Positions 36,901 to 59,201 of a stretch of DNA of 64,000 nucleotides are shown here, one piece after another; position 1 is the first letter of the stretch; each line of letters opens with the position of its first letter. The DNA is from Chthoniobacteraceae bacterium (GTDB lineage Bacteria; Verrucomicrobiota; Verrucomicrobiia; Chthoniobacterales; Chthoniobacteraceae). Both the position numbers and the translations under genes were made by a program. The DNA lies in NCBI GenBank assembly GCA_947449735.1, contig CANFTB010000016.1:21094-85093 (forward strand). Reading direction: 5' to 3'. The notes beneath the pieces were generated by a model, which was not told the DNA's origin, ran no database searches, and worked only from the letters and a program-made list of their open reading frames with translations.

Positions 36901-39900
36901 CTAGGGCGCCAGAAACCAGGTTTCTGTGAAGCCCAGGCCTGGAATTGAACTGGGGGCTAGAGGCCACCGACCGTTGATTTCAAGCGAATGGTGCACCCAG
37001 ATTCCATGCTTCAGAGCGTGTTCTCGAGGAACCCGAGGGAGATTCGCGTCGAACGGGATGTCCGTGGGCTGTTGTTGGCGGCTTTGAGTGATGAACTTCG
37101 AGTACCTCAACCGGGCGGATTGATCTTGATCGGCTAGGTCGTCGGGAGCGGGTGCCGGAGCGGGTGCCGGAGCGGGTGCCGGAGCAGGTGCCGGAGCAGG
37201 TGCCGGAGCAGGTGCCGGAGCAGGTGCCGGAGCAGGTGCCGGGGCGGGTGCCGGGGGGAGAATTGCCAGAGGTTGCAGCTTGAACCCGCTTGAATTCCTC
37301 AGCCCAAATTGCGATCGCATTTCCAGCGCCGCCGCCAGAATCACGCCCTCTAAGCTAGAGTGGTTGTGGTTGCCTGTGATCAAACCATCGGTTGTGTTTA
37401 GATAAACATTTGAAATGCCGCTGGAGGATGGCTGAACAGTCAGGTGTCCGTTGATCTCAATCGTTGGGGCGACCAAGCCAAGTCCGATGTCATGCTGCGT
37501 TACGCCGGCACCCGGTTCCGGGGCTCTTGCTAAAAGAGTCAGATTCTCGAGGTTTAACGTGATCGATTGGAATGCAGCCACGTCCCCCAGTACGACATTC
37601 TTGGCCGCAATCAAGAGTGCGCCCTGATCAACGACAAGCTTATGTCCGACTCCCATGGAGACTTGTTCTGCGCGGATCGTTAGGTTGCCGTTCTCTTTGA
37701 CAATGGTCGATTGTCCCCGGGGAGCCTGGGATCCCAAGGTGTTGAGCTGTATGCGCTTGGTGGCTTCCAGTAAAGTCGCTTTCACAAGAATCTCTTCGGT
37801 TGCGTCCAGAGAAAGCGCATTGGCCACCGAGGTGTTTTGAATCTGGATCCTGCCTGCCGAAGCCGTCAGATCTTGAAGTCGACGAACCGAGCCTGTCTGT
37901 CCTTCCAATGTGACCTGTCCCGAGGTGAACAATGTTAGCGCACCGGGACCGTCGAGGGACTTTTTAATAACGATGCTCCCATTGCCGGAACTGCGTAAAC
38001 GGACCGCAGCCAAGACTTCTACGGAGTTCCGGTACAACTGGTCCCCGGTGGTGGAGACGTCTCCGGAGATGCGGGTCGTTCCCTCGGCTCCAGTAGCGAG
38101 GCTTGTGAGAGCGAACGGACCGGACAAAGAGGTGATGCCCGCCGTGCTGGTTTCGAGGCGGAAGGGCCCCTCGGCTCCATTGCTCAATTCAATGGCGCCG
38201 CCGGAGGAACTCCGCAGCAGTGTGTCTTGGTTGAGGACAATACCTCCGGAAAAAGTCTGGGCACCGCTTGTTACTATCGAACCGCCGAGCCAGATCCCGT
38301 CCTTTGCGCGCACACTGAGGGAGGCGATGTCGTAATCGCCGAGGAGGTCTGCCTTGCCTCCCGTGTATACAGACAGGTTAAACGCACCGTCGGCGCCGCC
38401 CTTCAGGGCGATGTTCCCGGCCGGACCGGCGCTCAGAGTCGTCGCACTTTGGAGGTGCACGACGCCGGAAAACGTTTGGTCTCCCGAGGTGGCGACGATC
38501 CCGCCCTCAAAGTTGAGCGGGCCTTCGATCTGGATCGATTGCAGTCCCGTGAGGGCGCCCTGAAGGGTGGTGTCGCCTTTGATGCTCAGCGCCTGCTCGT
38601 TTCCAAGAACTGCACCGACCACATTGACTCGGGCTCCAGAGAGAGTCACGGAACCTTCCATGGACAGGTTGTTGTGAAAGGTCTGGGCTCCGCTGGTTAT
38701 GACGTTCGTTGAGAGAAAAAGGGCGCCGCCCAAATCTGTTTCAAGGCTGAGGATGGGCCGAGCGGAACCTACTTGTCCGTCCAGTCGCGCAGCGCCCCGG
38801 GTGAGGAGCGTGAGTGAGCCCGGACCGTCGAGGGTCCCCTTGAAGACAAGGTCCCCGGCAGCCGAACTTTCCAAACGGACTGCACCCAAGATTTCGACGG
38901 AGTTCCGGTACAACTGCCCCCCGGTGGTGGAGACGTCTCCGGAGATGCGGGTCGTTCCCTCTGCTGCCGTGGCGAGGCTTGTGAGAGCGAACGGACCGGA
39001 CAAAGTGGTGATGCCCGCCGTGCTGGTTTCGAGGTTGAAGGGGCCCTGAACGCCGCTGGTCAAATTAATGGAGCTGCCCGCGGAACTGCGTAGAACCGAG
39101 TCGCTTTTGAGCCAAATGCCGCTCGCGTACGTCTGAACTCCGGTTGTGACAATGGAGCCGCCAATCCAGGTTTCGCCCTCGGCGAGAACCTTGAGGGAGG
39201 CGATGCTGTAGTTGCCGAGAATTGCCGCTCTACCTCCCGAGGATACAACCATTTCAAAGGGGCCTTCGGCACCAGCTCCCAAGGAAATGTCTCCTGCAGG
39301 ACCGCTAATCAGAGAGGTCTCATTTTGGAGGCGCAGAGTGCCGGTGTAGTTCTGGTATCCCGAGCTGGCGATCAATCCACCCTTGAAAATGAGGGGGCCT
39401 TCTACCCATAGGGACTTCAGGCCAGTCGCAGAACCTTGGAGCGTAGATTCTCCGTTAATGCGCAATGACTGGTCGTTTCCGGTGATATCGCCGTTTATTA
39501 TGACAGTTGAGCCGGTCAGAGTTGCCGGTCCTGCAAGGGCAATGGCATCGTTAAATGTTTGTGCGCCAGTAGTGCGTATGTTTGCGGACAGGACAGTCGT
39601 GCCTCCAAAATCGGTTTCGAGTCTGTTGGTCGATACATTCCCGGCGATCAGCGTGGCTCCTGATGTCTTGAGGTTCAGTCCGAACTCGCCGGTTGCGCCT
39701 GCTGCTAGGCGGATGTCGCCTCCTCCGGTGCTGTAAAGTGTCGTAGGAGCAGCGATTTCGAGGGCGTCTCCGTAGGTCTGGGGCCCGGTCGTTTGCACCG
39801 AGCCGTGCAGGAGACGTGTTTTTCCGCCGGCGTCTGTGTAAAGGCTTTCTGCAGCTAAGGAATTTTGAAACGTGACGGTGCCCAGTGACGAAATGGAAAT

Positions 39901-42900
39901 GTTTTTGACCTTGAGCCCTGCTCCGATCGCTCCGGCGAAAAATATGTCTCCACTCGAGGTCTGCAGCGTCAGGTCTTGTGTGCCGTTGATCTGTTTCTCA
40001 ACTTGGATCGGACCGATGCCGGACACAAAGCTGGTGGGCACCAGTAGATTCATGTCTTCCTTTACGGAAATTGCACCTGCACCAGTGGGGCGCCCGAGGG
40101 TCAAAGAGCGAAAGCCTGCGATTGAAAAAGCCGAGAGCTTGCTCTGGTTGAGGTCAAGTTGCCCCGGCGTGTCCGTTGAGGCTGCAGAGTTGATTGCTAC
40201 GGGGGTCATTGCGTTGCCTTGGCCAAGGGTCAGTGCGCCGGTTCCCGTGATGCTGTTTTTTGTCGCGCTTACGAACAGTTCGTCTGCGTAAAGGAGAAGG
40301 GGGTTGGCGCCGGCTTTCAATGATCTGGCTAACGTTAGCTTGCCGCCCGCCTCGAACGTCGTTGCCTGCAAGAGCTCGACGTCTTCGGAGAAGATTTGAT
40401 CTTGGGTTGTCCGGATCTGAACTGCCGCGCCGTTCAGATCCTCGATGACTGTTTTCTCTCCTGTTTTAGCGCTGTAGTTTACTGTGACTCCTTTGAGGGG
40501 TGTTTCGGAACCGAGCGATGCTGAAATTTGTGTGATTCCGCCCGCGCTGATGGTGAGCAGGCTTTGTCCGTCGACTTTTGCTTGCACGATAACGTTCGCA
40601 TTGGTCACCAGGGTTGTATCGGTCGGAAGTTGGATTGGACCGGCAATCACCACGTGTGCGGTGCTGTCCGCTCTTCCGATGACCAGCTTTTGGACGGTGT
40701 TTCCAATGGTCGAGAAGGAGGCGGGGCCGACTACCAGTGCTTCGGCATTCGGCGCCGGGTCCGCAATTCTGGTGCTGACGCTTAGCGCGAATGGTTGGAT
40801 CGTAAGGACGTTGACGTTTGAGATCGAGCCGGGGCCTCCATTCAAAGACAGGTTGCTGTCGCAGATCAGACTCAGGCTGTAACCTCCTCCGTCGACGGCT
40901 CCTTTCAACGTGATAGAACCATACACAGGCGTTGGAGCCGGGGTAGATGTGCTTACGGTGAAAATCTGATTCGAGCTGCGGAGTTCCGTGCTTGCCGTGA
41001 GCTGCCATCCGGCTTGGACCTCGATGGGTACGTTTGAGGTCGCTCCAGTGCCACGGGCATAGCTTTGACCGTCGAAGCCTATCACAAGGGATCCGATCGT
41101 TTTGCCGTCCAGAAAATTCAGATCAGAACGAGTCAGGTCCATTGAGAGGTCTGTGGTTGGCCGGGTCGTGTCTTCGGTCGCGCCGTTTACGATGATTTTC
41201 CGGCCGCCGCCTTGGCCGTTGGGAATCACGTTGATCTGCAACGCCGTGAGATCACGCATGGGCTGGCGGATGTCCACCTCCAAGGCACGGATCCAAAGCG
41301 TCTTGTTGAGCCCGTCCGACGCCAGGGAGCCTCCAAGCGAGGCGTTTATTCTGACTGTAGAATAGGACTGAAGCTCTGTAGTCGCCTTTAGTGCGATGGG
41401 TGTGCCACTGAACGTCAGGTCTCCGGTCATGTCGGAGCGTCCGAGAAGGATCCGGTTGAAAGTGCCGCCGAGTGCCCGGTATTCGCCTGCGGTGATGGTG
41501 AGGGCGGAGGGGTTGTTTGAGGTCTCTCCAATAATCATTCCGCGGGCGACCGGGTTGATGCTCTGGTTGCCGTTGTTGACGGGCTGAATCACGAGGGTTC
41601 CAAGGCCCGACACGCTGGCGGAGGAGGGGTCGATGTCGATTTCCCTGCCTTGGAGCGTAATGCCCTGCAGAACACCAGAGCTGCTGAGGCCCGTTTGAAT
41701 GGGGCTGTTAATAATGAGGGTGTCGGACGCAGTCAGGCTCAGGCCGTTTACTCTTTTGCCCGTAAGATTTACGGCAGCATTGATTCGAATGTTTCCTCCG
41801 ATCATTGCGCCGGCTCTACCGAGGGTCAATGTACCCGGGAAGTTTGTCGCAAAGCTTGAGAGCTCGTCGATGTGGAGTTTGAGGAAATCACCGGCCGGGG
41901 CAGATGTGCCGGAGTATACTTCCATGTCGCGGACAGCGTTGCTTCCGGAGGGGCCATATGCCGGTCCGATGCTGATGTTTCCCGAACCCTTGATTTGAGC
42001 GAGCACACCGGGACTGAATTGCAGGCCGTTTGAGGCCAGGGAAAGTCCCTTGAGTCCGGTATCGATAGGCGCCTCAAAAACAAGCTGGCCTCCGCATCGC
42101 AGGGTAAGCGTGCCGCCCTTTCCTCCGGCTGCCGAGTTCAAAGTCACGGCCTCCTTGACCGTAAGGCTTGTCGAGGTGGTGGTGCCCTCGTTTCCAATCG
42201 CGAGCCCGAGGCTGTTATCGGCCAGACTTTTCACCGCGAGGGGTGAAATTCTGTAGATTCCCGATGCTGGCGCGGCCGAGGTGATTTCCATCGAAATGTG
42301 TCCGATGCCGAGAGCTGCAACCCATCCGGATGGAACGGCGATGGTTTGTTTCAGATCGATGTTGCCTCCGTACAGCTCCAGGTAGGACGTGTTGAGGAGC
42401 TGGACTGACGCGTGGTTCGCAAATCCCAGTGCACCCGATCGGAGCCGCAAAAAGGTGCCCACTCCGCTTCCCCTGTCCATGGACAGCGACTGGTTTGCGC
42501 TTGGGTCGCCGATTTGAAAGAGGGCGGTACTGTCTATGCGTCCCATGTAAAGCGCGATAAAATCCGAGCTGATCGCCTGCAGGTCTTGTGCGGTGAAATC
42601 AAGACGGCGGGAAGTGGAGTCGTCGGCTGACAATAGCTTCACACCGGTCGCTGCGTTGGCCTGTACGAAGTTCAGTGCACCGCTTCCTTTCAGCGAGTTT
42701 ATGCCTCCGGTCAGGTTGATTTCATCCGCCGTGATTGAAACGGTGCCGAGACCTCCGGTCGTTACCCGGTCTTGGCCCAGTTCGATTGAAACGGCGCCTA
42801 TAGCGATGACTCCGGTGGTGTTTGTCCCGAGCAGTTGAATGTTCGATACGTTGCGGTTGAATTGTGTGGTGGAAATTCGGGTGTCGATGTTTCCAAGAAT

Positions 42901-44481
42901 CTCGATGCCGTCCGAACTTGCGTTTGCGAGATGATCAACGAGGAGCGAGATGGTGTTTCCCGCTGTTTTCAAGGAGGCTGCCGTGGAAAGTTTGAGCCAT
43001 CCAGTGCCGTCCTTGTCGGAGTCGGCCGTCAGCGAGATCGCGCCATTTTTTGTGGCGATCGCCGCGTTCACAAAGAGGTTTCGCCCTGCGCTGAAGACGA
43101 TCCCTGCTCCGGTGGAGGTGAGGGAAATGGGCTGGTTTATCGTGATGTCTTGTGTGGCACTGAGGGTGATCGTGGCCGCGGAGCCGTTGATCGCCGAACT
43201 ATCCACGATTTGCTCACCTGTGCCGTTGATGGTGCCCTTTCCCCCGCTTTGAATGGTTAGATTCACCGGGTCGAGGAGCCAGGTGCCGGTTCGGCCGTCT
43301 GGGGTTCTGGTGTCGACCCGACCGCTCGAACCTATGGCGAGTTGAAGTCTTCCCGAGGTTTCGACATTGCCGCCTCTAGCATTTGCACCCAAGCCTAGCG
43401 CCTGAATGGACCCATCGAAGCGCGTGGACCCATTGGACCAGATGACGACATTTCCACCGTCCCCGGCATGTGTTGCGTTTGCAGCGATGGTGCTCTGGGA
43501 GTCTACGAAGGTGGCCTCTGATTGTAAAAGCGAGGGGCCTCCCTGGTAGGCGCCGCCTATCAGTATGTCTCCGCCGCCAATGGGCCCGCTGGCGTTGATC
43601 TTCGCTTTTTTGAGTGAGACAGATCGTCCTGTAACCTCAACCCGGCCTCCCTTCGCGCGCGGGTCTTTTGAGGTTGCTTCTACGAGCCCGGAGATCTCGA
43701 CGCTTCCGCGATTTCCCCCGGCGACCTGCACGACTGAGGCGTGGATCTCGCCTGCTTGCCTGATCAGGGAGGCGTAGCCGTCTCCTGCTCTCAGTGTGAC
43801 TTGCCTGGCCTTTATCGAGCCCTCATTGGTGATTACATAAGGGTGCGTCTGGCCGTATCCGTTTGAGCTGCCTTGGCTCGATACGAAAATGTTCTGCTGT
43901 TTATAACCAGTGTAAATCTGGTTTCCGACAAGCAGGCTGACCTCTCCTTCGGTGGATTCGAGGCGGCCGGAGTTTTCGATGCTTTGTCCGATCAGTTGGA
44001 TGTCGGCCTGCGAGCTGAGTCGTCCCGAGTTGGCGATCCTGCCATTCACCTCCGTGAAACGGTGCCGGCCCGAGTTAAAGTCCGAGTCGCTGATGTTGCC
44101 CGCTGCGGCCACGAGTGCGCCGACGTTGATGACTGAACCCCGGTTGAACATGATTCCCGCTGGGTTCACCAACATCACGTTACCGTTGGCGTTTATTCTT
44201 CCCGATATTTGAGTGGGATTCGGGTCTTTAATGCGATTTAAAACCCACGAGTTCTGGGTTGGCTGCCGAAAGTTGACGGATTCGTTCCTGGCGATGTCGA
44301 AACTCCGGTATTCCACGACCGCCCGGTCGGAAACCTTGATGTTCATCTGGCTTCCGGTTCGGCTGAATGATGCGGCGCCGCTGACTACGGTTTCCCCTGT
44401 TGGAAGCGCATTAGCAGTGGTCGCTGGAAGCGCAAAAAGCAGAGCCTCGCAGACGAAAAGAAAAGTCAGGTCGTGTTTCAT
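36901..44481 (-). CDS. Large two-partner secretion exoprotein (filamentous haemagglutinin-type, TpsA)
   Basis: About 2526 residues from ATG 44481, which gives a signal peptide (MKHDLTFLFVCEALLFALPATTANA); the tracked start adds 32 unlikely codons. Residues ~25-180 form the TPS secretion domain (VEYRSFDIARNESVNFRQP, ISGRINANGNVMLVNPAGIMFNRGSVINVGALVAAA). A long beta-helix of imperfect repeats follows. Two almost identical 292-residue blocks lie near residues 1630-2210. An Ala-Pro repeat covers ~2408-2443, and the C-terminus ends with FTETWFLAP after NGRWPLAPSS. It is probably a secreted adhesin or matrix protein, exported by the TpsB encoded 49 bp upstream. Confidence 0.9.
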   Translation of the reverse strand: MKHDLTFLFVCEALLFALPATTANALPTGETVVSGAASFSRTGSQMNIKVSDRAVVEYRSFDIARNESVNFRQPTQNSWVLNRIKDPNPTQISGRINANGNVMLVNPAGIMFNRGSVINVGALVAAAGNISDSDFNSGRHRFTEVNGRIANSGRLSSQADIQLIGQSIENSGRLESTEGEVSLLVGNQIYTGYKQQNIFVSSQGSSNGYGQTHPYVITNEGSIKARQVTLRAGDGYASLIRQAGEIHASVVQVAGGNRGSVEISGLVEATSKDPRAKGGRVEVTGRSVSLKKAKINASGPIGGGDILIGGAYQGGPSLLQSEATFVDSQSTIAANATHAGDGGNVVIWSNGSTRFDGSIQALGLGANARGGNVETSGRLQLAIGSSGRVDTRTPDGRTGTWLLDPVNLTIQSGGKGTINGTGEQIVDSSAINGSAATITLSATQDITINQPISLTSTGAGIVFSAGRNLFVNAAIATKNGAISLTADSDKDGTGWLKLSTAASLKTAGNTISLLVDHLANASSDGIEILGNIDTRISTTQFNRNVSNIQLLGTNTTGVIAIGAVSIELGQDRVTTGGLGTVSITADEINLTGGINSLKGSGALNFVQANAATGVKLLSADDSTSRRLDFTAQDLQAISSDFIALYMGRIDSTALFQIGDPSANQSLSMDRGSGVGTFLRLRSGALGFANHASVQLLNTSYLELYGGNIDLKQTIAVPSGWVAALGIGHISMEITSAAPASGIYRISPLAVKSLADNSLGLAIGNEGTTTSTSLTVKEAVTLNSAAGGKGGTLTLRCGGQLVFEAPIDTGLKGLSLASNGLQFSPGVLAQIKGSGNISIGPAYGPSGSNAVRDMEVYSGTSAPAGDFLKLHIDELSSFATNFPGTLTLGRAGAMIGGNIRINAAVNLTGKRVNGLSLTASDTLIINSPIQTGLSSSGVLQGITLQGREIDIDPSSASVSGLGTLVIQPVNNGNQSINPVARGMIIGETSNNPSALTITAGEYRALGGTFNRILLGRSDMTGDLTFSGTPIALKATTELQSYSTVRINASLGGSLASDGLNKTLWIRALEVDIRQPMRDLTALQINVIPNGQGGGRKIIVNGATEDTTRPTTDLSMDLTRSDLNFLDGKTIGSLVIGFDGQSYARGTGATSNVPIEVQAGWQLTASTELRSSNQIFTVSTSTPAPTPVYGSITLKGAVDGGGYSLSLICDSNLSLNGGPGSISNVNVLTIQPFALSVSTRIADPAPNAEALVVGPASFSTIGNTVQKLVIGRADSTAHVVIAGPIQLPTDTTLVTNANVIVQAKVDGQSLLTISAGGITQISASLGSETPLKGVTVNYSAKTGEKTVIEDLNGAAVQIRTTQDQIFSEDVELLQATTFEAGGKLTLARSLKAGANPLLLYADELFVSATKNSITGTGALTLGQGNAMTPVAINSAASTDTPGQLDLNQSKLSAFSIAGFRSLTLGRPTGAGAISVKEDMNLLVPTSFVSGIGPIQVEKQINGTQDLTLQTSSGDIFFAGAIGAGLKVKNISISSLGTVTFQNSLAAESLYTDAGGKTRLLHGSVQTTGPQTYGDALEIAAPTTLYSTGGGDIRLAAGATGEFGLNLKTSGATLIAGNVSTNRLETDFGGTTVLSANIRTTGAQTFNDAIALAGPATLTGSTVIINGDITGNDQSLRINGESTLQGSATGLKSLWVEGPLIFKGGLIASSGYQNYTGTLRLQNETSLISGPAGDISLGAGAEGPFEMVVSSGGRAAILGNYSIASLKVLAEGETWIGGSIVTTGVQTYASGIWLKSDSVLRSSAGSSINLTSGVQGPFNLETSTAGITTLSGPFALTSLATAAEGTTRISGDVSTTGGQLYRNSVEILGAVRLESSAAGDLVFKGTLDGPGSLTLLTRGAARLDGQVGSARPILSLETDLGGALFLSTNVITSGAQTFHNNLSMEGSVTLSGARVNVVGAVLGNEQALSIKGDTTLQGALTGLQSIQIEGPLNFEGGIVATSGDQTFSGVVHLQSATTLSAGPAGNIALKGGADGAFNLSVYTGGKADLLGDYDIASLSVRAKDGIWLGGSIVTSGAQTFSGGIVLNQDTLLRSSSGGAIELSNGAEGPFRLETSTAGITSLSGPFALTSLATGAEGTTRISGDVSTTGDQLYRNSVEVLAAVRLRSSGNGSIVIKKSLDGPGALTLFTSGQVTLEGQTGSVRRLQDLTASAGRIQIQNTSVANALSLDATEEILVKATLLEATKRIQLNTLGSQAPRGQSTIVKENGNLTIRAEQVSMGVGHKLVVDQGALLIAAKNVVLGDVAAFQSITLNLENLTLLARAPEPGAGVTQHDIGLGLVAPTIEINGHLTVQPSSSGISNVYLNTTDGLITGNHNHSSLEGVILAAALEMRSQFGLRNSSGFKLQPLAILPPAPAPAPAPAPAPAPAPAPAPAPAPAPAPAPAPAPAPDDLADQDQSARLRYSKFITQSRQQQPTDIPFDANLPRVPREHALKHGIWVHHSLEINGRWPLAPSSIPGLGFTETWFLAP
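37151..37258. repeat. 12-bp minisatellite encoding Ala-Pro repeats
   Basis: Nine head-to-tail 12-bp units of GGTGCCGGAGCG/A (the last two degenerate, with GGGG) occur in the exoprotein gene. On the coding strand each unit encodes Ala-Pro-Ala-Pro. The array is followed by DDLADQDQSARL. Such tracts change length easily by replication slippage and would alter the length of an extended linker near the C-terminus. Confidence 0.93.
37850..38725 (-). repeat. Second copy of an 876-bp tandem duplication in the exoprotein gene (bounds approximate)
   Basis: This copy repeats the 38726-39601 copy at a constant offset of 876 bp (292 codons); for example CCGGTGGTGGAGACGTCTCC occurs at 38045 and 38921. It encodes FALTSLATGAEGTTRISGDVSTTGDQLYRNSVEVL, matching FALTSLATAAEGTTRISGDVSTTGGQLYRNSVEIL. 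Within each copy the protein shows smaller units of about 73 residues with a TTGxQTF-like motif. Confidence 0.85.
38726..39601 (-). repeat. First copy of the 876-bp tandem duplication (bounds approximate)
   Basis: In protein order this is the upstream copy (residues about 1630-1920). Stretches of near-perfect nucleotide identity with the next copy alternate with divergent stretches, as expected after a not very old duplication or gene conversion. A weaker third copy of the small unit lies just before it (SVQTTGPQTYGDALEI). Confidence 0.82.
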
Positions 44482-44530
44482 AAAGTGATAAAAATGAGGG
44501 TGTTTGTCCAACGCAGCAGCGTGGTCTCGT

Positions 44531-46546
44531 TTACCAGGCGAGGGTTGCGCCGATGTGGAGCCGTGCGTCACCCGCACGCACTGAGTGGCTTGTGAACCGT
44601 GTGTCGTCCTTCAGGGCGAACCCTATGTCAGCCCGGACTGAGAAATAGGTCGGCTTGTACGTGACAAGTTCAATGCCGAAGCCGGCTCCCAAAAGGGTCT
44701 TGTTTGCTTCGACTCCCGCTACGGGCCGGGTGTTGTATGTGTGTGCCCCGTCGACAAAGGTGCGCAGAATCAAGTCCCAGTCCGGCACCTCGCCGACACG
44801 GCTTGGTCTTGCGGCGAAGCTTTGGGGTGTGCGGATGCCGCCGGACTCGACCCCGCTATCGGGTCTCTGGACATTTGAGCCCTCGACCGTTTTAGCGTCC
44901 TTTAACGACGCAGGCTTGAGGAACCTACGGGCGAGGTGGAAGCGGTATTCCAATCCGGCCAGAACAGCGCCGTCCGCGGCCGTTGTTGCCTCCGGGTAGC
45001 CTCGAACCGAATCGAGTCCCCCCACAACTGCTTCCATTTGCGGCACCAGCCTTCCACTTCCCAGGGCTGCCTGTCCTCTAAAAGTGCCGGCGAGCTCTTG
45101 GGACTTGAGGCATTTCCACCACTCAGTTTGGGACTCCCAAGCCCTGCCGTAAATCAACGGATCCAGCCAGAGCGAGCCCTGCATGTTCCATCTCAGAATC
45201 GAGAAAACGGGATCCGTATCCGTCCGTCCAAGAGCAGTGAGGCCATCAGCCGATGTGCCCGCAATACGAGGCAGGTTGCGCTCGACCTGTGCGTTGAGCG
45301 CCAGCGTGTATAGTTCTTTGATGCGTTCCGTTCCAATGCCTATGTAGGGAATGAAAAAGTTCTCATCACCAGAAATGAGCGCCGGTCGGTTGTCGACCGA
45401 AGCGTTCATCCAGTAGGCGCCTGCGGTGAAGTCGATAGGCCATCCCTTCCAGTCGCAAGGTGTCCAGGTCAGTTGCGTGCCAATAGAGCCCTGGTTTGAA
45501 TCGAAGGTCCCGAGGTTCTGTCCAAGGTCTTCTGAAGTAGACTGGGCGTAGGATCCGTAAATGCGGCCTTTAAGGTAGTCCGGGGAAACAAGCGCGAAGG
45601 TGTAAGAGGCGTTCGCGCTGTTGGATGATTTAAAATCGTTCGTTGCGTATCCAACGCGGAGAACGTCGTCGATTCCCGTAGGGTGTCGGTACTCGAGTCC
45701 GATTTGGGACCGCCATTTGGGTGACGGACCCGCCCCCGTGTTGGACACGTCGTAGTGGACAAAGATCGGACGCTCTTCCCGGATGAGGTAGTTGAGGTCG
45801 AAGCCCGGGGATTCGTGCTCCGGGGCGCTTAGCGCGGTGTCGACGCGTCTGCCGGGAAACCGGTTGAGCCTGTCGAGGTACGTTTGGAGGGCCTCTTTTT
45901 TCAGCAGGCTGCCGGTAGTGACCGGGCTGTGGCTTGCGATCCATCGGTCCCCAGGTTTGTTAACCGTTGCTGTATCGGGGTGCGCGACTGGAAGTTGGAT
46001 ACGGGTGGTTTTGACACTGCCCGCCTCGGCGACGCTTACTTGGAGGATAAGTGGTTCGTTAGACTTTCGAAGATCAAAAAGGCGGCCATCGATAAGGCTG
46101 ATCTGGTTGGGGTGAACGCTTACGTAAATCCCGTATATGCATTGATCATTAAAGAGCTTCACCACGGCTTGGAAGATCTCGATTAGCGCGGCTGGGCTGA
46201 ACTTCCGTGTCTGAGAGTTGTCCCCTATTGCGAAGGACTCGGTCGGTCCCAGCTCCCCGGTGGGCTCCGCGGGGCGGTACACGCGTCCATCGAACCGGAG
46301 CGCGACGTTGACGGCCTTAAGCATTGATGGCGAGGGAAGGCTTGGATGCCGCTGGTTGAGTCCCCGCTCGTACTGGACGTGAAAGCCACGGGTCTCGACT
46401 GCATCGGTGGCTGTTTTCGTTTGCGCATGCAGCGCCATCTGGGGCGCGCTCTTTTGTGGGACCTGTGCCGCACATGTCGTAGCGGCGATGACGAGCTGCA
46501 ATGCTATCCAGGTGGCGCTTTTTTTCGGGACGGATGGATAAGGCAT
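44531..46546 (-). CDS. Two-partner secretion outer-membrane transporter (FhaC/ShlB, TpsB)
   Basis: About 671 residues from ATG 46546 (MPYPSVPKKSATWIALQLVIAATTCAA, signal-like); a TTG 11 codons earlier is an alternative. The N-terminal half has POTRA-like periplasmic sequence (LIEIFQAVVKLFNDQCIYGIYVSVHPNQISLI). The C-terminal Omp85-type barrel includes RSQIGLEYRHPTGIDDVLRVGY, VGGLDSVRGYPEATTAADGAVLAGLEYRF (the VRGY motif of FhaC) and ends in IGATLAW with a terminal aromatic. It exports the exoprotein encoded 49 bp downstream. Confidence 0.9.
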   Translation of the reverse strand: MPYPSVPKKSATWIALQLVIAATTCAAQVPQKSAPQMALHAQTKTATDAVETRGFHVQYERGLNQRHPSLPSPSMLKAVNVALRFDGRVYRPAEPTGELGPTESFAIGDNSQTRKFSPAALIEIFQAVVKLFNDQCIYGIYVSVHPNQISLIDGRLFDLRKSNEPLILQVSVAEAGSVKTTRIQLPVAHPDTATVNKPGDRWIASHSPVTTGSLLKKEALQTYLDRLNRFPGRRVDTALSAPEHESPGFDLNYLIREERPIFVHYDVSNTGAGPSPKWRSQIGLEYRHPTGIDDVLRVGYATNDFKSSNSANASYTFALVSPDYLKGRIYGSYAQSTSEDLGQNLGTFDSNQGSIGTQLTWTPCDWKGWPIDFTAGAYWMNASVDNRPALISGDENFFIPYIGIGTERIKELYTLALNAQVERNLPRIAGTSADGLTALGRTDTDPVFSILRWNMQGSLWLDPLIYGRAWESQTEWWKCLKSQELAGTFRGQAALGSGRLVPQMEAVVGGLDSVRGYPEATTAADGAVLAGLEYRFHLARRFLKPASLKDAKTVEGSNVQRPDSGVESGGIRTPQSFAARPSRVGEVPDWDLILRTFVDGAHTYNTRPVAGVEANKTLLGAGFGIELVTYKPTYFSVRADIGFALKDDTRFTSHSVRAGDARLHIGATLAW

Positions 46547-46997
46547 AGGGTGCGCAATTTTTTGGGGACCAAACTCCAAGGTTCCCGTCGGTGAGATGGG
46601 ATCGCGAGAGACGGTTACGGTGACAGGCTTCGTGGAGGCTCCTCGAAGGCCCCTTGGGTTAGTACAAGGGCGGGGTGCTGAATCTCCTGCTTTGCCTTGT
46701 GAGGAATCCGCCTAGTCGGGGCAGTGATGCCCTCACCAAATAGAAACGCTTCTCCCTATTTGATTGGATGCACGAATGATTAGCCGTCGAGTTTAGGTGT
46801 TCGGGAAACGTGCATGAATTCCAGAAAATACCTGTATACTAACGTATTGCGTCTTGAATCCGGCGCATGGAGGTCGTCATCTCACCGGAGGATCCTGTTC
46901 TCGGAGGTCCAAAAGATGCGGGTGGCCATTGTCTGCCTTCTGCCTGGATGAGAAAGGAATCTCGATTTTGTCACTCGAGCGCCGCCGTACCGAGGGC
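46547..46997. other. Intergenic stretch upstream of the two-partner secretion operon
   Basis: About 450 bp between the cytochrome b gene end and the tpsB start, all in a minus-strand run. It should contain the tpsBA promoter (reading leftward). ORFs in the track here are shadows. An AT-rich patch near 46830-46850 (ATACCTGTATACTAACG) is the only obvious compositional change. Confidence 0.45.
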
Positions 46998-47693
46998 TTA
47001 CCCTTTTTGAATCACGGGAAAAGTGATTTCTGGAAGAAAGGGGATGCTGAGCACAGAAGCAGACAGGTCGAAGTATTTGATGACGGCCGCCGTGATCGCC
47101 AAGCTGAGAAGCAGCAGGATGACACCGCCTGCGAGGTTTTCGCTTACACCCGGACGGTTCTGTGGGCTGGGGCCTCTGCCGTGCACCATCTCGAGTGGTG
47201 TCAGAGCGCGATGGCGCATCGCATGTAGGGTGAGCCCCAGAAGATGCACTGCGATGGCGGCTACCGTGAAACCGGCGATACGCACGTGCCAGGTTTCTGC
47301 GAGGTCCGCGACAAAGCCCGTATAGATCAGGGCAGCGAGTGCGGCGTAGACCGAGACGGCAAACAATGACGATCCCGGATTCAGGCCGGCGTAGGCCGTG
47401 CGTTTGCCTGAGAGGGCGTGAATGAAGTAGAGAACGATCGCCTTCGGAGAGTGGAAGAAACCGCTCCACGTCATCGGAAGGGAGCCGAAGAAACCGAGGA
47501 AGATTCGCACCGCAAGAAACCAGCAGCACAGGACGCTCGCCAGAATGTGGTATTTGAAGGGGTCGCTTTCCGGTTCGTACTGGTACGCGAAGAAGATCGA
47601 AGAAAGAAGGCTTATGGAAAAGCCCCAGTGGCTGACCCGTGCTGGGAGGTTCCAGCGAATGAGCTTGGTATCACGGTCGCTGGTCTCACTCAT
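46998..47693 (-). CDS. Cytochrome b561-like di-heme membrane protein
   Basis: A 231-residue protein from ATG 47693 (MSETSDRDTKLIRWNLPARVSHWGFS); the tracked start is inside the upstream gene. Four to five membrane spans carry conserved His: RVSHWGFS in the first, FKYHILASVLCC in the second, and ETWHVRIAGFTVAAIAVHLLGLTLHAMRHRAL in the fourth. This is the pattern of b-type cytochromes (Ni-hydrogenase/b561 type) that move electrons across or along the membrane. It overlaps the FAD oxidoreductase stop by 4 bp, which points to translational coupling and a common function. Confidence 0.85.
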   Translation of the reverse strand: MSETSDRDTKLIRWNLPARVSHWGFSISLLSSIFFAYQYEPESDPFKYHILASVLCCWFLAVRIFLGFFGSLPMTWSGFFHSPKAIVLYFIHALSGKRTAYAGLNPGSSLFAVSVYAALAALIYTGFVADLAETWHVRIAGFTVAAIAVHLLGLTLHAMRHRALTPLEMVHGRGPSPQNRPGVSENLAGGVILLLLSLAITAAVIKYFDLSASVLSIPFLPEITFPVIQKG

Positions 47694-50600
47694 GCGAATC
47701 GCTTGGTAAGAGGATTCAGGGAAAGGTGGCCGCCATTGTTTTGGAGCCATTTTCGCCAAGCGTCCGCGGCAAAGTGGAAATCCATTCCAGTGGCGATGGC
47801 GAGTTCTGAGCGAGCGGCTCTGGCGAGGCAGAGCCTCGCCTCGTCGAGGAAATCGCAAAGGTTGATCGCGCCCTCCGGATCGCCGCAACGGAGGAGTGCT
47901 CGGTTCAGTGCCATTCGCAGGTAGGCGATGCGCTCGCCTTGTGTGTTGCTACAGGCGCGCATGTCACCGGTGCGTTTCACCGGCGTTTCATCGAGAAATT
48001 TGGACGCCAGTAGTTCCTTGAGCGGCTTGCGGGCTTCCGGCACGGGAAGTCGCTCGAAGCCGCACGCTATCGTGTAGAAGTATCCCCAGGCAGATCTCAG
48101 GTCTCCGCCATCCTGCACAAGTTTGGCCGCCAGTTCGACGAGTTGCGGAATGGCACGCCTGTCTCCGCTTTGAATCAGGCTGCCCAGCATCAGCGCGGAA
48201 ACCGGCGCGTATCCCTGGTCCGGCATCATGTGTTTTGTGGCCGTCCCTCCGAACAACTCGCTGCTAAGCGCGGGCTCTGCTAGCGCCTTTTGGATGTCGC
48301 TCAGGTAGGCGTCCGTTCCCCGTTTGTCCCCGAGGAATGCCAGCACCCGGTGGACGGCGTCGTTTGGTTTTCCTGCGTGTGGCTCGAGCGTTTCAATCGC
48401 CTTGTGCCGAGGCAACAGGCACAGCATGGCGGAGATGGACAGCGTGTCGTCCAGATTCGACTTTGAGACAATTTTCTTTCCGATTTCCTCGGGCGTGTAT
48501 TTGAACCCCAAGTCGTCCGGCGAGATGTCTTCGGGCTTGAGCATCTCTTTTGCAATCAATGTGGACTGGAGTTCGCCGACTGGGATGTCGCGAAGCAGGG
48601 TGGCCTTGTTTTTCGCGAGGCGTAAAGCGTGGGCAGCCACCATGCCCATAACGCAGAGATCCCGCTGCATTCGCGCTGCGGAGAGTGCGTCGTGGGTCGC
48701 CGAGTAGGCCTTGCCCGCGATGATGACGTTGTCCAGCGTCAGCGGGATCATCGCCGGGTAGGGCACGGTCGCCTGGTAAACCGCCCTCCAGTTTGTGGGG
48801 ATAAAGCCGGCTTTTGCCGCGTCACTCGTCGCCAGTCCCTTGATGTCGGGGTTGGATTCAACCCGGAAGACGCCGTCCTTAAACCTGCGCCCCGCAAGCA
48901 GGTCGAGAAAGGTCAGCGTCTTTCCTCCCGTGATGTGACGGGACTCGCGCGGTGCGAGGTAGAAGGGCGGGGGAATGTGCTTTTGCTCGAGCGTGATTTT
49001 ACTGTTTCGCCGCATCGATAGGATGAAGCGTGTTGTGTCCGTTGGACTGCGTTCATCGCAAGGCGAAAGAAACGGGCGCATGGCCTCGGGACGGCCGGGC
49101 TTGTAGCCGGCGAAAGAGGCCCAGAGCGTCAGTTCATCGTGTTCCCCTCCGAAGGTGTATGCGGCTCCGGCCCAGGCGGCGACGGCTCCGTCCCCGGTGG
49201 CGTCTATGATGTGGGGCGCCTCGATGGCGGTGAGGCCGGAGGGCGTAGTCACGTAAATACGGACCACGTCGCGACCCTTGCAGGCAACCCCGGTGACGGC
49301 GCATCCGAACAGGACATTGCCGCCGGCCTTTTTAACGCCCTTGTAGAAGCCTGGCGCATTGAGTCCGTCGTTTTTGGCGTCCATCGCGGCATAGTAATCC
49401 TCGAACGCCTTGGTGCGCTTTCCGTACCAGAGGTTGGTGACGCCACCGACCGTGTTTGTGCCCCCGAGTTCGTATCCGCGTTCGAGACACACGGTGCGCA
49501 TTCCGAGTTGGGCGGAGGCGTAGGTTGCCGCGTTTCCGCTGGTGCCGCCGCCGATGACAAGCGCCTCGGATTGCATTGCGGATATCGGAGCGTCGAACTT
49601 GACCCTCGCCGGGGTGGTGTCTGGTTCATCAAAGCCGTGGTCTTGAAAGCTGTGTGCGATCTCTTTTGACGCGGATGGCCTGCTTTGGATTCCGCGGTTC
49701 CAGAACTCGTACGAAGCGTCCGGCGTGTTTGGATGGACCTGGCGGGAGGCAACGCGCTCAACGGCATTCGGAAACGCCACGAACAATGCCTTCCAGTTTT
49801 TCAAAACTAGAGAGCCGTCAGTGTTCCCCTGAATGCCGTGGGGGCCGAATACGAAAAGGCTTTCGAAGCCCTCGACCGCACCTTCGTTCGAATCGAGTTT
49901 GTCCGGGCCGCTTGCCAGGACGGCATCTGCTCCGCGAAAACGCTTTTCCGAGCCCGTCCAGGGAGCCTGCAGGGAGGCTGCGTAGACTGTGTTGAAGTCT
50001 TCGGAAAATGCGAAAGGACCGGATGTTTTGGAGTCGAAGGTGATATCGAACCCAGCGAAGTAGTGGTGCACCTCAAGGGACACAGACGCACCTTGAGCGG
50101 ATTTGTAGGCGGCAGTGCGCGGCTCAACAGGAGTTGAAAGATCGACTGCGTAGTGGAACCGCCGGGGGCCATTCTGCGGCGTGAAGTTTGCGCCTGCAGC
50201 CCTTGCAACGGTGGCGTCCAGGGTGGCGTCAATGATGGTTCCTGCCGTGATTCCAAAGAACCCGGTCTTTCCGCCGAAAACCACACCTGTGAGTTTGCCA
50301 TCCTGAGCAAGGGCGCCTGCCACCGATGCATTGTAAAGAAAGCGCACCCCCGCCTCGGTGAGGCGGTCTTCGATCTCAAGGGCCGCCTTTGAGGCGTTGA
50401 AGTAGATCCGGCCGTTCTTGGTTTCGCAGGTCGTCGGATCGAGGACTCCCCGGACAACGGTTGGAAAGGCGTTTGCGTCCTCTTCAGAAATCCAAGGGCG
50501 CAGACACGCGATGCCTTCCAAAAAGGGATTCACCCGGTCCATGACGAGGACCGCCTTCAGCCCCTTTGCCGCGATCTCCATGGCCAGTTGGCACGCAAAC

Positions 50601-50788
50601 AGGGTGCTCCCACAAATCAGTACGTCCGAGTGTTTGTGCAGCGCGACGCCGATCGTGCCCTCGGAACTGAAGCTTGGCGGGGCGGCTTCGGCGGCACCGT
50701 ACAACAGTTTGGGCGTCATTGCCGTGGCTGCCAGCGCTCCACCGACCGTTTGAAGAAAGGTTCTGCGGCCGACTGGAGGGGGTGTCAT
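47690..50788 (-). CDS. Tat-exported FAD-dependent oxidoreductase with a helical C-terminal domain
   Basis: About 1032 residues from ATG 50788 (MTPPPVGRRTFLQTVGGALAATAM), a twin-arginine signal; the tracked start lies in the divergent promoter region. Two Rossmann-type regions occur: a degenerate first (HSDVLICGSTLFACQLAMEIAAKGLKAVLV) and a classical second (SEALVIGGGTSGNAATYASAQLGMRTVCLERGYELGGTNTVGGV). PHIIDATGDGAVAAWAG and VIIAGKAYSATHDALSAARMQRDLCVMG fit the FAD_oxidored family. The last ~200 residues are helical and HEAT-like. The membrane cytochrome b downstream is the probable electron partner. The substrate is unknown. Confidence 0.85.
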   Translation of the reverse strand: MTPPPVGRRTFLQTVGGALAATAMTPKLLYGAAEAAPPSFSSEGTIGVALHKHSDVLICGSTLFACQLAMEIAAKGLKAVLVMDRVNPFLEGIACLRPWISEEDANAFPTVVRGVLDPTTCETKNGRIYFNASKAALEIEDRLTEAGVRFLYNASVAGALAQDGKLTGVVFGGKTGFFGITAGTIIDATLDATVARAAGANFTPQNGPRRFHYAVDLSTPVEPRTAAYKSAQGASVSLEVHHYFAGFDITFDSKTSGPFAFSEDFNTVYAASLQAPWTGSEKRFRGADAVLASGPDKLDSNEGAVEGFESLFVFGPHGIQGNTDGSLVLKNWKALFVAFPNAVERVASRQVHPNTPDASYEFWNRGIQSRPSASKEIAHSFQDHGFDEPDTTPARVKFDAPISAMQSEALVIGGGTSGNAATYASAQLGMRTVCLERGYELGGTNTVGGVTNLWYGKRTKAFEDYYAAMDAKNDGLNAPGFYKGVKKAGGNVLFGCAVTGVACKGRDVVRIYVTTPSGLTAIEAPHIIDATGDGAVAAWAGAAYTFGGEHDELTLWASFAGYKPGRPEAMRPFLSPCDERSPTDTTRFILSMRRNSKITLEQKHIPPPFYLAPRESRHITGGKTLTFLDLLAGRRFKDGVFRVESNPDIKGLATSDAAKAGFIPTNWRAVYQATVPYPAMIPLTLDNVIIAGKAYSATHDALSAARMQRDLCVMGMVAAHALRLAKNKATLLRDIPVGELQSTLIAKEMLKPEDISPDDLGFKYTPEEIGKKIVSKSNLDDTLSISAMLCLLPRHKAIETLEPHAGKPNDAVHRVLAFLGDKRGTDAYLSDIQKALAEPALSSELFGGTATKHMMPDQGYAPVSALMLGSLIQSGDRRAIPQLVELAAKLVQDGGDLRSAWGYFYTIACGFERLPVPEARKPLKELLASKFLDETPVKRTGDMRACSNTQGERIAYLRMALNRALLRCGDPEGAINLCDFLDEARLCLARAARSELAIATGMDFHFAADAWRKWLQNNGGHLSLNPLTKRFA

Positions 50789-56334: not shown

Positions 56335-59040
56335 CTATCCTCGGCCGCCGGGTGCGAGGTCTCCCGATTGTGCTCCCCGCAGGAGGGATTCGCGGCGGTC
56401 GCGCACGAGGTTGACAATCAGTGAGGTCCAGCCCGTCTGGTGCGAGGCGCCGATGCCTTCGCCGGTTTCGGCGTGGAAATACTCGTGGAATAAAAGCAGT
56501 CCCTTCCAGTCGTCGACGTCGCTGTAGCGTTTCGCCGCACCAAAACAGGGGCGGTACCCGGCCTCATCCGGCACGAAAAGCGAGACCAGCCTGTCGCACA
56601 GATCCAGGGCAATCTCCCGCAGGGTCGCCATCTTTCCGGAACCCGTGGGGTACTCGATCGTGAAGGTGTCCCCGTAAAAATAGGCGTACCGTTCGAGGGC
56701 CTCGATGATGAGGAAGTTGATCGGAAACCAGATCGGCCCGCGCCAGTTGGAGTTTCCCCCGAACATCTCCGTCGTGGCCTCCCCCGGGGCGTAGGCCACC
56801 TCGTGCTTCTGGCCTTCGTGGAAAAAGGTGAACGGGGTCTCGTCATGCGCCTTGCTGAGGGAGCGGATTCCAAAGCTGGAGAGAAACTCCTTCTCGTCCA
56901 GCATGTACTGCAGACTCCTGCGCAGCCGCGCCTCGCTGGGAATGGCCAGCAGACAGCGCCCCGGATTCTTCCCCGTCGCCCGCCGGACGGTGATGTATTT
57001 GAGCAGGTCGGGCCGGTTGATCAGAAACCAGTCCATGCGTTTCCGGAAGTTCGGTAGGGCGTCGATGGTCTTCTGTTTGAGCACGGTGACCGCGCACATG
57101 GGAAGAAGCCCCACCAGCGAGCGGATCCTCAGAGGAATGGGATCCTTGTGGTTGATGATCAGCTGATCGTAGTAGAACCCGTCGGTGCTGTCCCACAGGC
57201 CGGTGCCGCCCAGCGCGTTGATGGCGTCGCAGATATTGACGAAATGCTCGAAAAACTTCGACGCGATGTCCTCGTACACCGGTTTTTCAAGCGCGAGCTC
57301 CAGCGAGATGGAGAGCATCGTCAGGCAGTACGAGGCCATCCACGCGGTCCCGTCAGCCTGGTTGAGGCGTCCCCCACCGGGCAGCGGCTGGGAGCGGTCA
57401 AACACCCCGATGTTGTCCAAGCCGAGGAAGCCGCCGCCGAAAACATGGCGTCCCTCGACATCCTTGCGGTTGACCCACCAGGTGAAGTTCAGGAGCAGTT
57501 TCTGGAAAGCCCGCTCCAGAAAGAAGATGTCGCGGCTGCCTTTTTTGTCCGAGATCTTGTAGACCCGCCACACCGCCCAGGCGTGCACCGGGGGGTTCAC
57601 ATCCGAGAAGTTCCACTCATAGGCGGGCAGCTGCCCGTTGGGGTGCATGTACCACTCGCGCAGCAGCAGCAGAAGCTGGTCCTTGGCGAAGTCCGGATCT
57701 ACCGCCGCAAACGGCAGCATGTGAAAAGCGGTGTCCCAGGCGGCGAACCACGGGTACTCCCACTTGTCCGGCATGGACAAAATGTCCTTGGCGAAAAAAT
57801 TGGGCCAGTCCGCGTTGCGCCCCTTCAGACGGAACTCTGGAGGGGGGGCGTCCTTGTCGCATTTGAGCCAATCCTCGACAACGTAGTAGAAGAACTGCTT
57901 GGTCCACAGCAGGCCCGCGTAGCCTTGGCGGCAGATCATCCGCTCCTCTTCTGTGACCCCGGAGGGAATCAGGCCGCCGTAAAACGCCTCGGTCTCGGCG
58001 ATGCGCTGTGCGAAGACTTCCTCGAAGCCGTCCAGGCCCCGCACCAAGTGGGCTTCACTCTGGAGCACGAGGCGGCAGCGCACCCTGACGCTCCCGCCCG
58101 CGGGCACCATGAACTGGAAGTGCGCAGCCGCCTTGGTGCCCCGGGGCTCCTGCGAAACCGCGCTCTGCTCGCCATGGATGATGTGCCGGTGGAAGGCGTC
58201 TTTCACGAAAGGGACGGGATTCTCCGCGCCCGAAAAACTGTGGAAATTTGTGTCGTTGTTGGTGAACAGCCAGTCTGGCGCGCCGTCCGCCCCCGCGTGC
58301 GGGGAGTCCGCATAAAACTCGTATTGTCCCAACGTTTCGTGTTGGGCGACGAGCTTCCCGTCCACCCCGGTGATCCCCGGCATCGTGATGGGGGACTCCC
58401 TGTTGTTTCCCCAGCTCCACACGTTCCGCAACCAAAGTGTCGGCAGCACGTGGAGCGGCGCGGCCTCCGGCCCGTGGTTGGTTATGGTGATCTGCCACAA
58501 CAGGTCCTCCGGCGTGCGCTTGGCGACCTCCTGCAAAACATCAAAGTAGCGGCCCTCCTCGAACATCCCCATGTCCGCCAGCTCCATCTCGGGACCGAGC
58601 CTTCCGAGTCGCTGGTTTTCGAGCCGCAGTTCGGTGTAGGGGTACTTGGCCTGGGGATACTTGTAGAGCGCCTTGGTGTACGAGTGCGTCGGAGTGGAAT
58701 CCAAGTAGTAGTAACACTCTTTGACGTCCTCCCCGTGGTTGCCTTCGTTGCCGTCGAGGCCGAAGAGCCGTTCCTTGAGGATGGTGTCGTTCGTGTTCCA
58801 GAGCGCGGGGGCGAAACACAGACGGCATTGCCGGTCCGTCCAGCCCTGCAGCCCGTCCTCACCCCAACGGTAGGCCCGGCGCCGGGCGTGGTCATGCGGG
58901 AACGAGTCCCAACTGTTGCCATGGTCCGAATAGTCTTCGCGGACAGTCCCCCACTGGCGTTCGCTGAGAAAGGGTCCCCAGCGACGCCATTGCTTCGAAC
59001 CGTCCCTTGCTTCAGTGAGGCGTTGGATTTCCCGCTCCAT
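56335..59040 (-). CDS. GH63-type glucosidase
   Basis: About 901 residues from ATG 59040 (MEREIQRLTEARDGSKQWRRWGPFLSERQWGTVREDYS); the tracked TTG start adds 25 codons. The sequence matches bacterial GH63-type glucosidases: WDSFPHDHARRRAYRWGEDGLQGWTD, FFAKDILSMPDKWEYPWFAAWDTAFHMLP, NWRGPIWFPINFLIIEAL and GEGIGASHQTGWTSLIVNLV. Such enzymes hydrolyse alpha-glucosides, and some act on mannosylglycerate or glucosylglycerate. It is divergent from a GH13 enzyme, suggesting shared turnover of a storage or compatible-solute glucoside. Confidence 0.88.
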   Translation of the reverse strand: MEREIQRLTEARDGSKQWRRWGPFLSERQWGTVREDYSDHGNSWDSFPHDHARRRAYRWGEDGLQGWTDRQCRLCFAPALWNTNDTILKERLFGLDGNEGNHGEDVKECYYYLDSTPTHSYTKALYKYPQAKYPYTELRLENQRLGRLGPEMELADMGMFEEGRYFDVLQEVAKRTPEDLLWQITITNHGPEAAPLHVLPTLWLRNVWSWGNNRESPITMPGITGVDGKLVAQHETLGQYEFYADSPHAGADGAPDWLFTNNDTNFHSFSGAENPVPFVKDAFHRHIIHGEQSAVSQEPRGTKAAAHFQFMVPAGGSVRVRCRLVLQSEAHLVRGLDGFEEVFAQRIAETEAFYGGLIPSGVTEEERMICRQGYAGLLWTKQFFYYVVEDWLKCDKDAPPPEFRLKGRNADWPNFFAKDILSMPDKWEYPWFAAWDTAFHMLPFAAVDPDFAKDQLLLLLREWYMHPNGQLPAYEWNFSDVNPPVHAWAVWRVYKISDKKGSRDIFFLERAFQKLLLNFTWWVNRKDVEGRHVFGGGFLGLDNIGVFDRSQPLPGGGRLNQADGTAWMASYCLTMLSISLELALEKPVYEDIASKFFEHFVNICDAINALGGTGLWDSTDGFYYDQLIINHKDPIPLRIRSLVGLLPMCAVTVLKQKTIDALPNFRKRMDWFLINRPDLLKYITVRRATGKNPGRCLLAIPSEARLRRSLQYMLDEKEFLSSFGIRSLSKAHDETPFTFFHEGQKHEVAYAPGEATTEMFGGNSNWRGPIWFPINFLIIEALERYAYFYGDTFTIEYPTGSGKMATLREIALDLCDRLVSLFVPDEAGYRPCFGAAKRYSDVDDWKGLLLFHEYFHAETGEGIGASHQTGWTSLIVNLVRDRRESLLRGAQSGDLAPGGRG

Positions 59041-59201
59041 TTCCCGTATCTGTATCAGGTATTTTATCAGATAGGAAATCGTTAGGGCTCCTTTGTTTTG
59101 CTGTTTGAAACGCAAATGCGGCTCCGGCCACCAACCGGCCGCCCGCTACCGGCAGGTCTTCGCTGCTTGAGCGGCGTAGGATCCGGTGTTAATTCCGCCC
59201 A

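Follow-up and report, generated by a model that had tools for sequence, protein, structure and literature searches.

Several redox enzymes that act outside the cytoplasmic membrane and are linked to it by a dedicated partner have been described. Exported enzymes with a dihaem anchor of family PF01292 are already known from hydrogenase 1 of E. coli, with its subunit HyaC (4gd3), and from formate dehydrogenase N, with its subunit FdnI (1kqf_C), and in both cases the anchor serves a dehydrogenase exported by the twin-arginine translocation (Tat) pathway, as we propose here. The gluconate and fructose dehydrogenases and flavocytochrome c are flavin enzymes outside the membrane that feed the respiratory chain; in the MsrPQ system, MsrP is a molybdenum enzyme that catalyses a reduction, and MsrQ belongs to a different family from the cytochrome considered below. 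Here we describe two overlapping genes of a Chthoniobacteraceae bacterium (assembly GCA_947449735.1), encoding a flavoprotein of the flavin adenine dinucleotide (FAD) oxidoreductase family PF12831 and a b-type cytochrome of family PF01292. Both protein families are already known. The genes lie in a window of 64,000 nucleotides, the whole stretch of DNA analysed (contig CANFTB010000016.1, positions 21,094 to 85,093). The most likely reading of the pair, and one that we regard as reasonably probable, is a dehydrogenase exported by Tat, with a dihaem anchor of the HyaC/FdnI type through which it reduces quinone. What the sequences show directly is the gene pair itself, its conservation, the twin-arginine motif of the flavoprotein, and the haem-ligand pattern and C-terminal tail of the cytochrome.

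Conservation of the gene pair

A profile search of 213 genomes of the order found the FAD subfamily of the flavoprotein in nine, eight of them in the same genus and one in another genus of the family, and a cytochrome profile recovers exactly the same nine genomes. In every one of them the two genes are next to each other and point the same way; the ATGA overlap of stop and start codons is kept in eight of these pairs, and the ninth has TAA-T-ATG with a one-base gap. The original prediction, which was made from the letters of the window, had expected the pair to recur in other genomes, and it does so, always with the genes side by side. Full-length flavoprotein orthologues are 53-67% identical, and the ratio of nonsynonymous to synonymous change between close pairs (dN 0.06-0.20 versus dS 0.4-1.7) reflects purifying selection on both genes. 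Since nine genomes keep the pair and purifying selection acts on both of its genes, the pairing is not a matter of chance, although the nine carriers are related and do not represent nine independent events. Flanking genes differ between clades and are common only within the two closest pairs, and it is therefore these two genes that form the conserved unit.

The gene trees of the flavoprotein and the cytochrome agree at supported nodes. In the flavoprotein tree the out-of-genus copy groups with that of the window, which may reflect transfer. Sampling 384 genomes from the class and 388 from the phylum brought up no further orthologue of the FAD protein, and a plasmid search gave short FAD-motif matches only.

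The flavoprotein and its predicted export signal

The flavoprotein is a member of the FAD_oxidored family, matching PF12831 with an E-value of 5.5e-57 (194.4 bits, against a cut-off of 27). Since its N-terminal half matches this profile by itself and is homologous to the second half (profile-profile probability 99.1), the protein is, judged by its sequence, the product of a tandem duplication whose first copy has degenerated. The original prediction had recognised one degenerate and one intact Rossmann motif, and these correspond to CGSTLFA in the first domain and to the FAD-binding motif GGGTSG in the second. Its further proposal of a HEAT-like C-terminal domain stands less firmly: the last ~290 residues give a single HEAT_PBS match (E 0.0032) below the cut-off, the family profile matches designed HEAT-like alphaRep proteins (4xl5, E 2e-8; also 6ft5), and C-terminal helices appear in a low-confidence model of the flavoprotein, all of which weakly suggests such a fold. 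The sequence has neither CxxC nor CxxCH, and a classical c-haem or iron-sulphur relay is therefore absent; transfer to haem would take place directly from the flavin or via a centre of an unrecognised kind.

The N-terminus reads MTPPPVGRRTFLQTVGG, with the motif GRRTFLQ included. RRxFL is invariant in all seven complete orthologues amid an otherwise variable N-terminus, and TatC is found in the organism's own genome (E 6.5e-54). A conserved twin-arginine signal and a TatC in the same genome are the features of a Tat substrate, in agreement with the exported-looking, Tat-type protein that had been predicted, and they suggest that the flavoprotein is exported through Tat.

Distant relatives of the flavoprotein

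More than 50 tandem-FAD plus HEAT-like proteins of 800-1600 amino acids, all with the same domain order, were found in a sample of the phylum at E <= 1e-25. What is unusual about the system is Tat export together with the cytochrome; the architecture of two FAD domains and a HEAT-like region is widespread in the phylum. Tandem-FAD relatives from Verrucomicrobiota (PF12831, ~900-1150 amino acids, ~25% identical to the flavoprotein of the window) share with it the domain order and the motifs G-G-G-T, SRExRxI and RMQxD. They differ in that their first Rossmann motif is mostly intact, whereas it is degenerate in the subfamily of the window, and in that they have an apparent signal of the general secretory (Sec) type or none, unlike the RRxFL subfamily. 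No RR motif is present in the distant relatives inspected, a lone regular-expression match in L076 being one by pattern alone. Nor do the surroundings fetched for these relatives contain a PF01292-like gene of this subfamily, as judged by a cytochrome profile run on the first 20 loci and a screen of the rest for adjacent multi-helix open reading frames.

Membrane proteins of other kinds do occur beside some of them. One distant tandem-FAD gene (L066:6710-9745, minus strand) is followed 3 bp downstream by the start of a gene (L066:5705-6706, minus strand) for a 333-amino-acid protein with N-terminal membrane helices, a histidine-bearing helix and no Pfam match; once suspected to be a second haem partner, this protein is possibly an independent membrane partner. 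A hydropathy screen also identified membrane-protein neighbours of the distant relatives L083, L093, L098, L100 and L059, and the sequences of those adjoining L083 and L093 show no resemblance to b561.

The FAD subfamily of the window is monophyletic. L057 and L058 come closest to it in the tree, a join flagged as a possible long-branch effect; neither of the two seems to begin with a signal, and they adjoin a sulfatase and a GH95-like/TonB locus. The very long branch of the subfamily (a stem of 2.3 changes per column) and the degeneracy of the first domain are what might be seen if the flavoprotein were internal or an inactive scaffold, with an incidental RR motif and neither domain catalytic. 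We consider this very improbable, given that RRxFL is invariant while the N-terminus around it varies and that the second Rossmann motif and the family motifs are fully kept under strong purifying selection.

The cytochrome and its C-terminal tail

The cytochrome scores 39.3 bits against PF01292 (cut-off 30.1) and has four predicted haem-ligand histidines in helices 1, 2 and 4, which places it in this family; the membrane b-type cytochrome of the original prediction is thereby confirmed, with histidines that match those of known quinone-linked anchors. A structural model of moderate quality (predicted local distance difference test, pLDDT, 67) has helices at residues 16-38, 44-69, 106-127, 129-161 and 187-207, a four-helix PF01292 core with a fifth helix added. 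Its best fold match is FdnI 1kqf_C (probability 0.99, E 0.07, low-confidence model), and, with E above 0.06 throughout, the fold matches are taken as support only.

H22, H49, H136 and H150 are invariant in the nine coupled cytochromes and in six stand-alone relatives found with the cytochrome profile in a 289-genome sample of the phylum. A profile of the coupled cytochromes alone matched no solved relative; when the stand-alone relatives were added, matches appeared to HyaC 4gd3 (E 1.6e-6) and, weakly, to CybB 5oc0 (E 4.8). The alignments match H22 and H49 to histidines of HyaC helices 1 and 2, and H136, H150 and H157 to CybB H137, H151 and H158. In superoxide oxidase, H158 is part of the cytoplasmic-side quinone site and K134 is part of a periplasmic superoxide-collecting cluster (PMC11869295). 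The position of CybB K134 is an invariant glutamate (E133) in the coupled cytochromes, and the first periplasmic loop, between helices 1 and 2, is acidic and has no arginine; the CybB cationic cluster (R30, R35, R38, R108, K134) is thus not found, a comparison based on K134 and the character of the loop, as R30, R35, R38 and R108 cannot be aligned singly. With H157 invariant in the nine coupled cytochromes and K134 replaced by an invariant glutamate, the cytochrome may plausibly have a quinone site, but hardly a superoxide site.

Loops 2-3 and 4-5 and the N-terminus carry positively charged residues, and loops 1-2 and 3-4 have none. Because these charges follow the positive-inside rule, the N-terminus is predicted to lie inside and the C-terminal tail outside, where the exported flavoprotein would be. 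This tail, of the type IPxLPEIxFPxIQKG, is present in all nine coupled cytochromes; QKG is invariant, and variation elsewhere includes VP for FP in L006 and L007 (two of the nine) and LPSL in L009. The stand-alone relatives share the fifth helix, and all six lack the QKG tail, having acidic, histidine-rich or other tails instead. The tail is thus a likely candidate for an element that docks the flavoprotein.

At the QKG position the C-termini of five of the stand-alone cytochromes (L116, L117, L119, L120 and L121) are acidic and mostly contain histidine, and in L121 a long open reading frame lies directly downstream of the cytochrome, with a response regulator adjoining.

No member of the FAD family lies within ~6 kb of the six stand-alone cytochromes. 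That such cytochromes exist, and that superoxide oxidase activity is known for a bacterial b561 with this fold (PMC11869295), would agree with a link through the operon only, in which the flavoenzyme is an oxygen-using oxidase and the cytochrome is a free-standing b561 engaged in superoxide scavenging or membrane redox balance. We give this a small chance, as co-occurrence and adjacency are perfect in nine genomes, the tail is restricted to the coupled form, and the superoxide-collecting site is not kept.

Gene context and the substrate

One orthologous locus, together with the surroundings of the distant relatives, hints at a carbohydrate as the substrate. In genome G013 (L051:3298-13892, minus strand) an FG-GAP protein, the FAD protein, the cytochrome, a NosD-like beta-helix protein and a DUF4838/CBM9 protein are encoded co-directionally, with a gap of 16 bp between the pair and the gene for the beta-helix protein and none between that gene and the next. 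This locus offers the best clue to a carbohydrate substrate, and the substrate class is a guess from context, to be held with considerable doubt. In the window itself, genes for a GH63/MGH1-like glycosidase and a member of the alpha-amylase family lie at 56335-60686, ~6-10 kb from the pair.

Proposed mechanism and its alternatives

From these observations we infer export, complex formation, the direction of electron flow, the use of quinone and the class of substrate. In the proposed mechanism, the flavoprotein would fold and bind FAD in the cytoplasm, be exported through Tat and come to lie against the cytoplasmic membrane from outside. The second domain, which would hold the FAD, would oxidise a small organic compound, possibly a sugar or a derivative of one. 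The first domain, a degenerate duplicate, probably does not bind FAD and may have a structural or substrate-binding role. The reduced flavin would pass electrons directly to the periplasm-side haem (His49/His136) of the five-helix cytochrome, from which they would move on to the haem of the cytoplasmic side (His22/His150) and then, near His157, to quinone, with the periplasmic tail presumably holding the two proteins together.

Electrons could also run the opposite way, from quinol through the cytochrome to an exported flavoprotein that acts as a periplasmic reductase, as in MsrPQ or in flavin fumarate reductases of the periplasm. Anchors of this dihaem class can work in either direction, MsrP receives electrons from the membrane cytochrome MsrQ (PMC7759655), and the family profile gives short matches, over FAD-motif stretches, to flavocytochrome c3 fumarate reductases. 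These last matches are, however, confined to the FAD motif and do not amount to family membership. HyaC, the partner of a substrate-oxidising enzyme, is the closer match to the cytochrome, and the distant relatives have genes for carbohydrate degradation around them, a setting in which an oxidation would be more natural. We therefore regard a reductase as unlikely.

Several points weigh against an exported, quinone-reducing dehydrogenase. The flavoprotein model, built from five sequences, has a pLDDT of 42.6, which bears on FAD binding and on the path from flavin to haem. The Tat signal was judged from its motif and conservation. Four members of the genus, 93-97% complete, carry neither gene, and the pair is therefore accessory. 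The carbohydrate hint comes from one orthologous locus and from relatives of 25% identity, and in most of the genomes that carry the pair the flanking genes give no clue to the substrate.

Gene layout and neighbouring genes

Both genes were read as minus-strand open reading frames with the coordinates, the 1032-residue length and the 4-bp overlap given in the original prediction (Table 1). The host draft genome comprises 4.18 Mb in 67 contigs and has one good match for each gene, a second FAD match being a short stretch of 27% identity. Two of the nearest named relatives are from lake metagenomes, and the orthologous contigs derive from metagenome-assembled genomes.

Table 1. Coordinates in the window of the flavoprotein and cytochrome genes and of the features predicted or observed within them.
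Feature	Position	Strand	Basis
Tandem FAD_oxidored flavoprotein gene, 1032 amino acids	47690..50788	-	Open reading frame, ATG start at 50788, PF12831
Putative twin-arginine signal region, residues 1-33, GRRTFLQTVGGALAATAMTPKLLYGAAE	50690..50788	-	RRxFL in orthologues
N-terminal FAD_oxidored-like domain, residues 46-400	49589..50653	-	PF12831, E 2.1e-12 on N-terminal half alone
Degenerate first dinucleotide motif CGSTLFA	50594-50611	-	Motif comparison
Second FAD_oxidored domain, intact, residues 401-745	48554..49588	-	PF12831 stretches, family-wide conservation
GGGTSG Rossmann motif, second domain	49535-49552	-	Invariant in orthologues
Family motifs RESRHI and HDALSAARMQRD	Second FAD domain	-	Conserved family-wide
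C-terminal helical, HEAT-like region, residues 746-1032	47693..48553	-	HEAT_PBS below cut-off, alphaRep profile match
ATGA stop/start overlap, 4 bp	47690..47693	-	Sequence
b-type cytochrome gene, 231 amino acids	46998..47693	-	Open reading frame, ATG start at 47693, PF01292
His22, predicted ligand, cytoplasmic-side haem	47628..47630	-	Invariant; aligned to HyaC 4gd3
His49, predicted ligand, periplasmic-side haem	47547..47549	-	Invariant; aligned to 4gd3, 5oc0
His136, predicted haem ligand, pairs with His49	47286-47288	-	Invariant; aligns with CybB H137
His150, predicted haem ligand, pairs with His22	47244-47246	-	Invariant; aligns with CybB H151
His157, aligns with CybB His158 (quinone site)	47223..47225	-	Alignment to 5oc0; invariant in 9/9 coupled
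C-terminal tail, residues 216-231, SIPFLPEITFPVIQKG, predicted periplasmic	47001..47048	-	Conservation; loop charges

The pair is adjoined by a two-partner secretion pair, which consists of an exoprotein of 2558 amino acids with a TPS secretion domain (36901-44577, minus strand; PF05860, E 6e-27) and, preceding it, a ShlB/FhaC-like transporter (44531-46579, minus strand; PF03865, just above the cut-off). On the other side a metallophosphoesterase gene (PF00149; 50942-51919, plus strand) is divergent from the pair, and its product starts with a twin-arginine-like SRRRF motif; this gene was not seen adjoining the pair in the other genomes that carry it.

Comparison with known systems

No name for the combination of a PF12831 flavoprotein with this cytochrome, or for the diagnostic tail, was found in the open-access literature, which accords with the earlier statement that no named system has this composition. 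The pair could belong to an unnamed class of membrane-linked flavin dehydrogenase, a suggestion that we offer tentatively: a PF12831 enzyme in which one FAD domain is dead and the other live, exported by Tat, joined to a dedicated dihaem cytochrome with a purpose-made docking tail, passing electrons from flavin to haem to quinone without an iron-sulphur or c-haem relay, and descended from cytosolic or Sec-exported, glycan-associated ancestors. If true, this would tie to respiration a very large and biochemically almost unstudied flavoprotein family of polysaccharide-degrading Verrucomicrobiota, and would show how a soluble member of that family became a dehydrogenase linked to the membrane. 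With a partner conserved alongside it and a diagnostic tail, the family lends itself to testing, and reduction of haem or quinone could serve as a read-out in screening for substrates.

The gluconate and fructose dehydrogenases and flavocytochrome c combine GMC-type flavoproteins with c-haems, whereas the flavoprotein of the window belongs to PF12831 and, having no CxxCH, is not a flavocytochrome c or a c-haem-linked flavin dehydrogenase. CybB (5oc0) shares the b561 four-helix fold with the cytochrome of the window, which differs from it in the absence of the cationic superoxide site and in the presence of a dedicated protein partner. No hydrogenase or formate dehydrogenase genes are found near the pair, the FAD gene being the only constant neighbour and a [NiFe] hydrogenase or formate dehydrogenase partner thus lacking there; compared with HyaC and FdnI, the partner is a flavoprotein with no iron-sulphur subunit, and the cytochrome has an invariant QKG tail at the end of its fifth helix. 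MsrPQ resembles the proposed system in joining a Tat-exported redox enzyme that has no membrane anchor of its own to a dedicated, quinone-linked haem protein of the membrane (PMC7759655).

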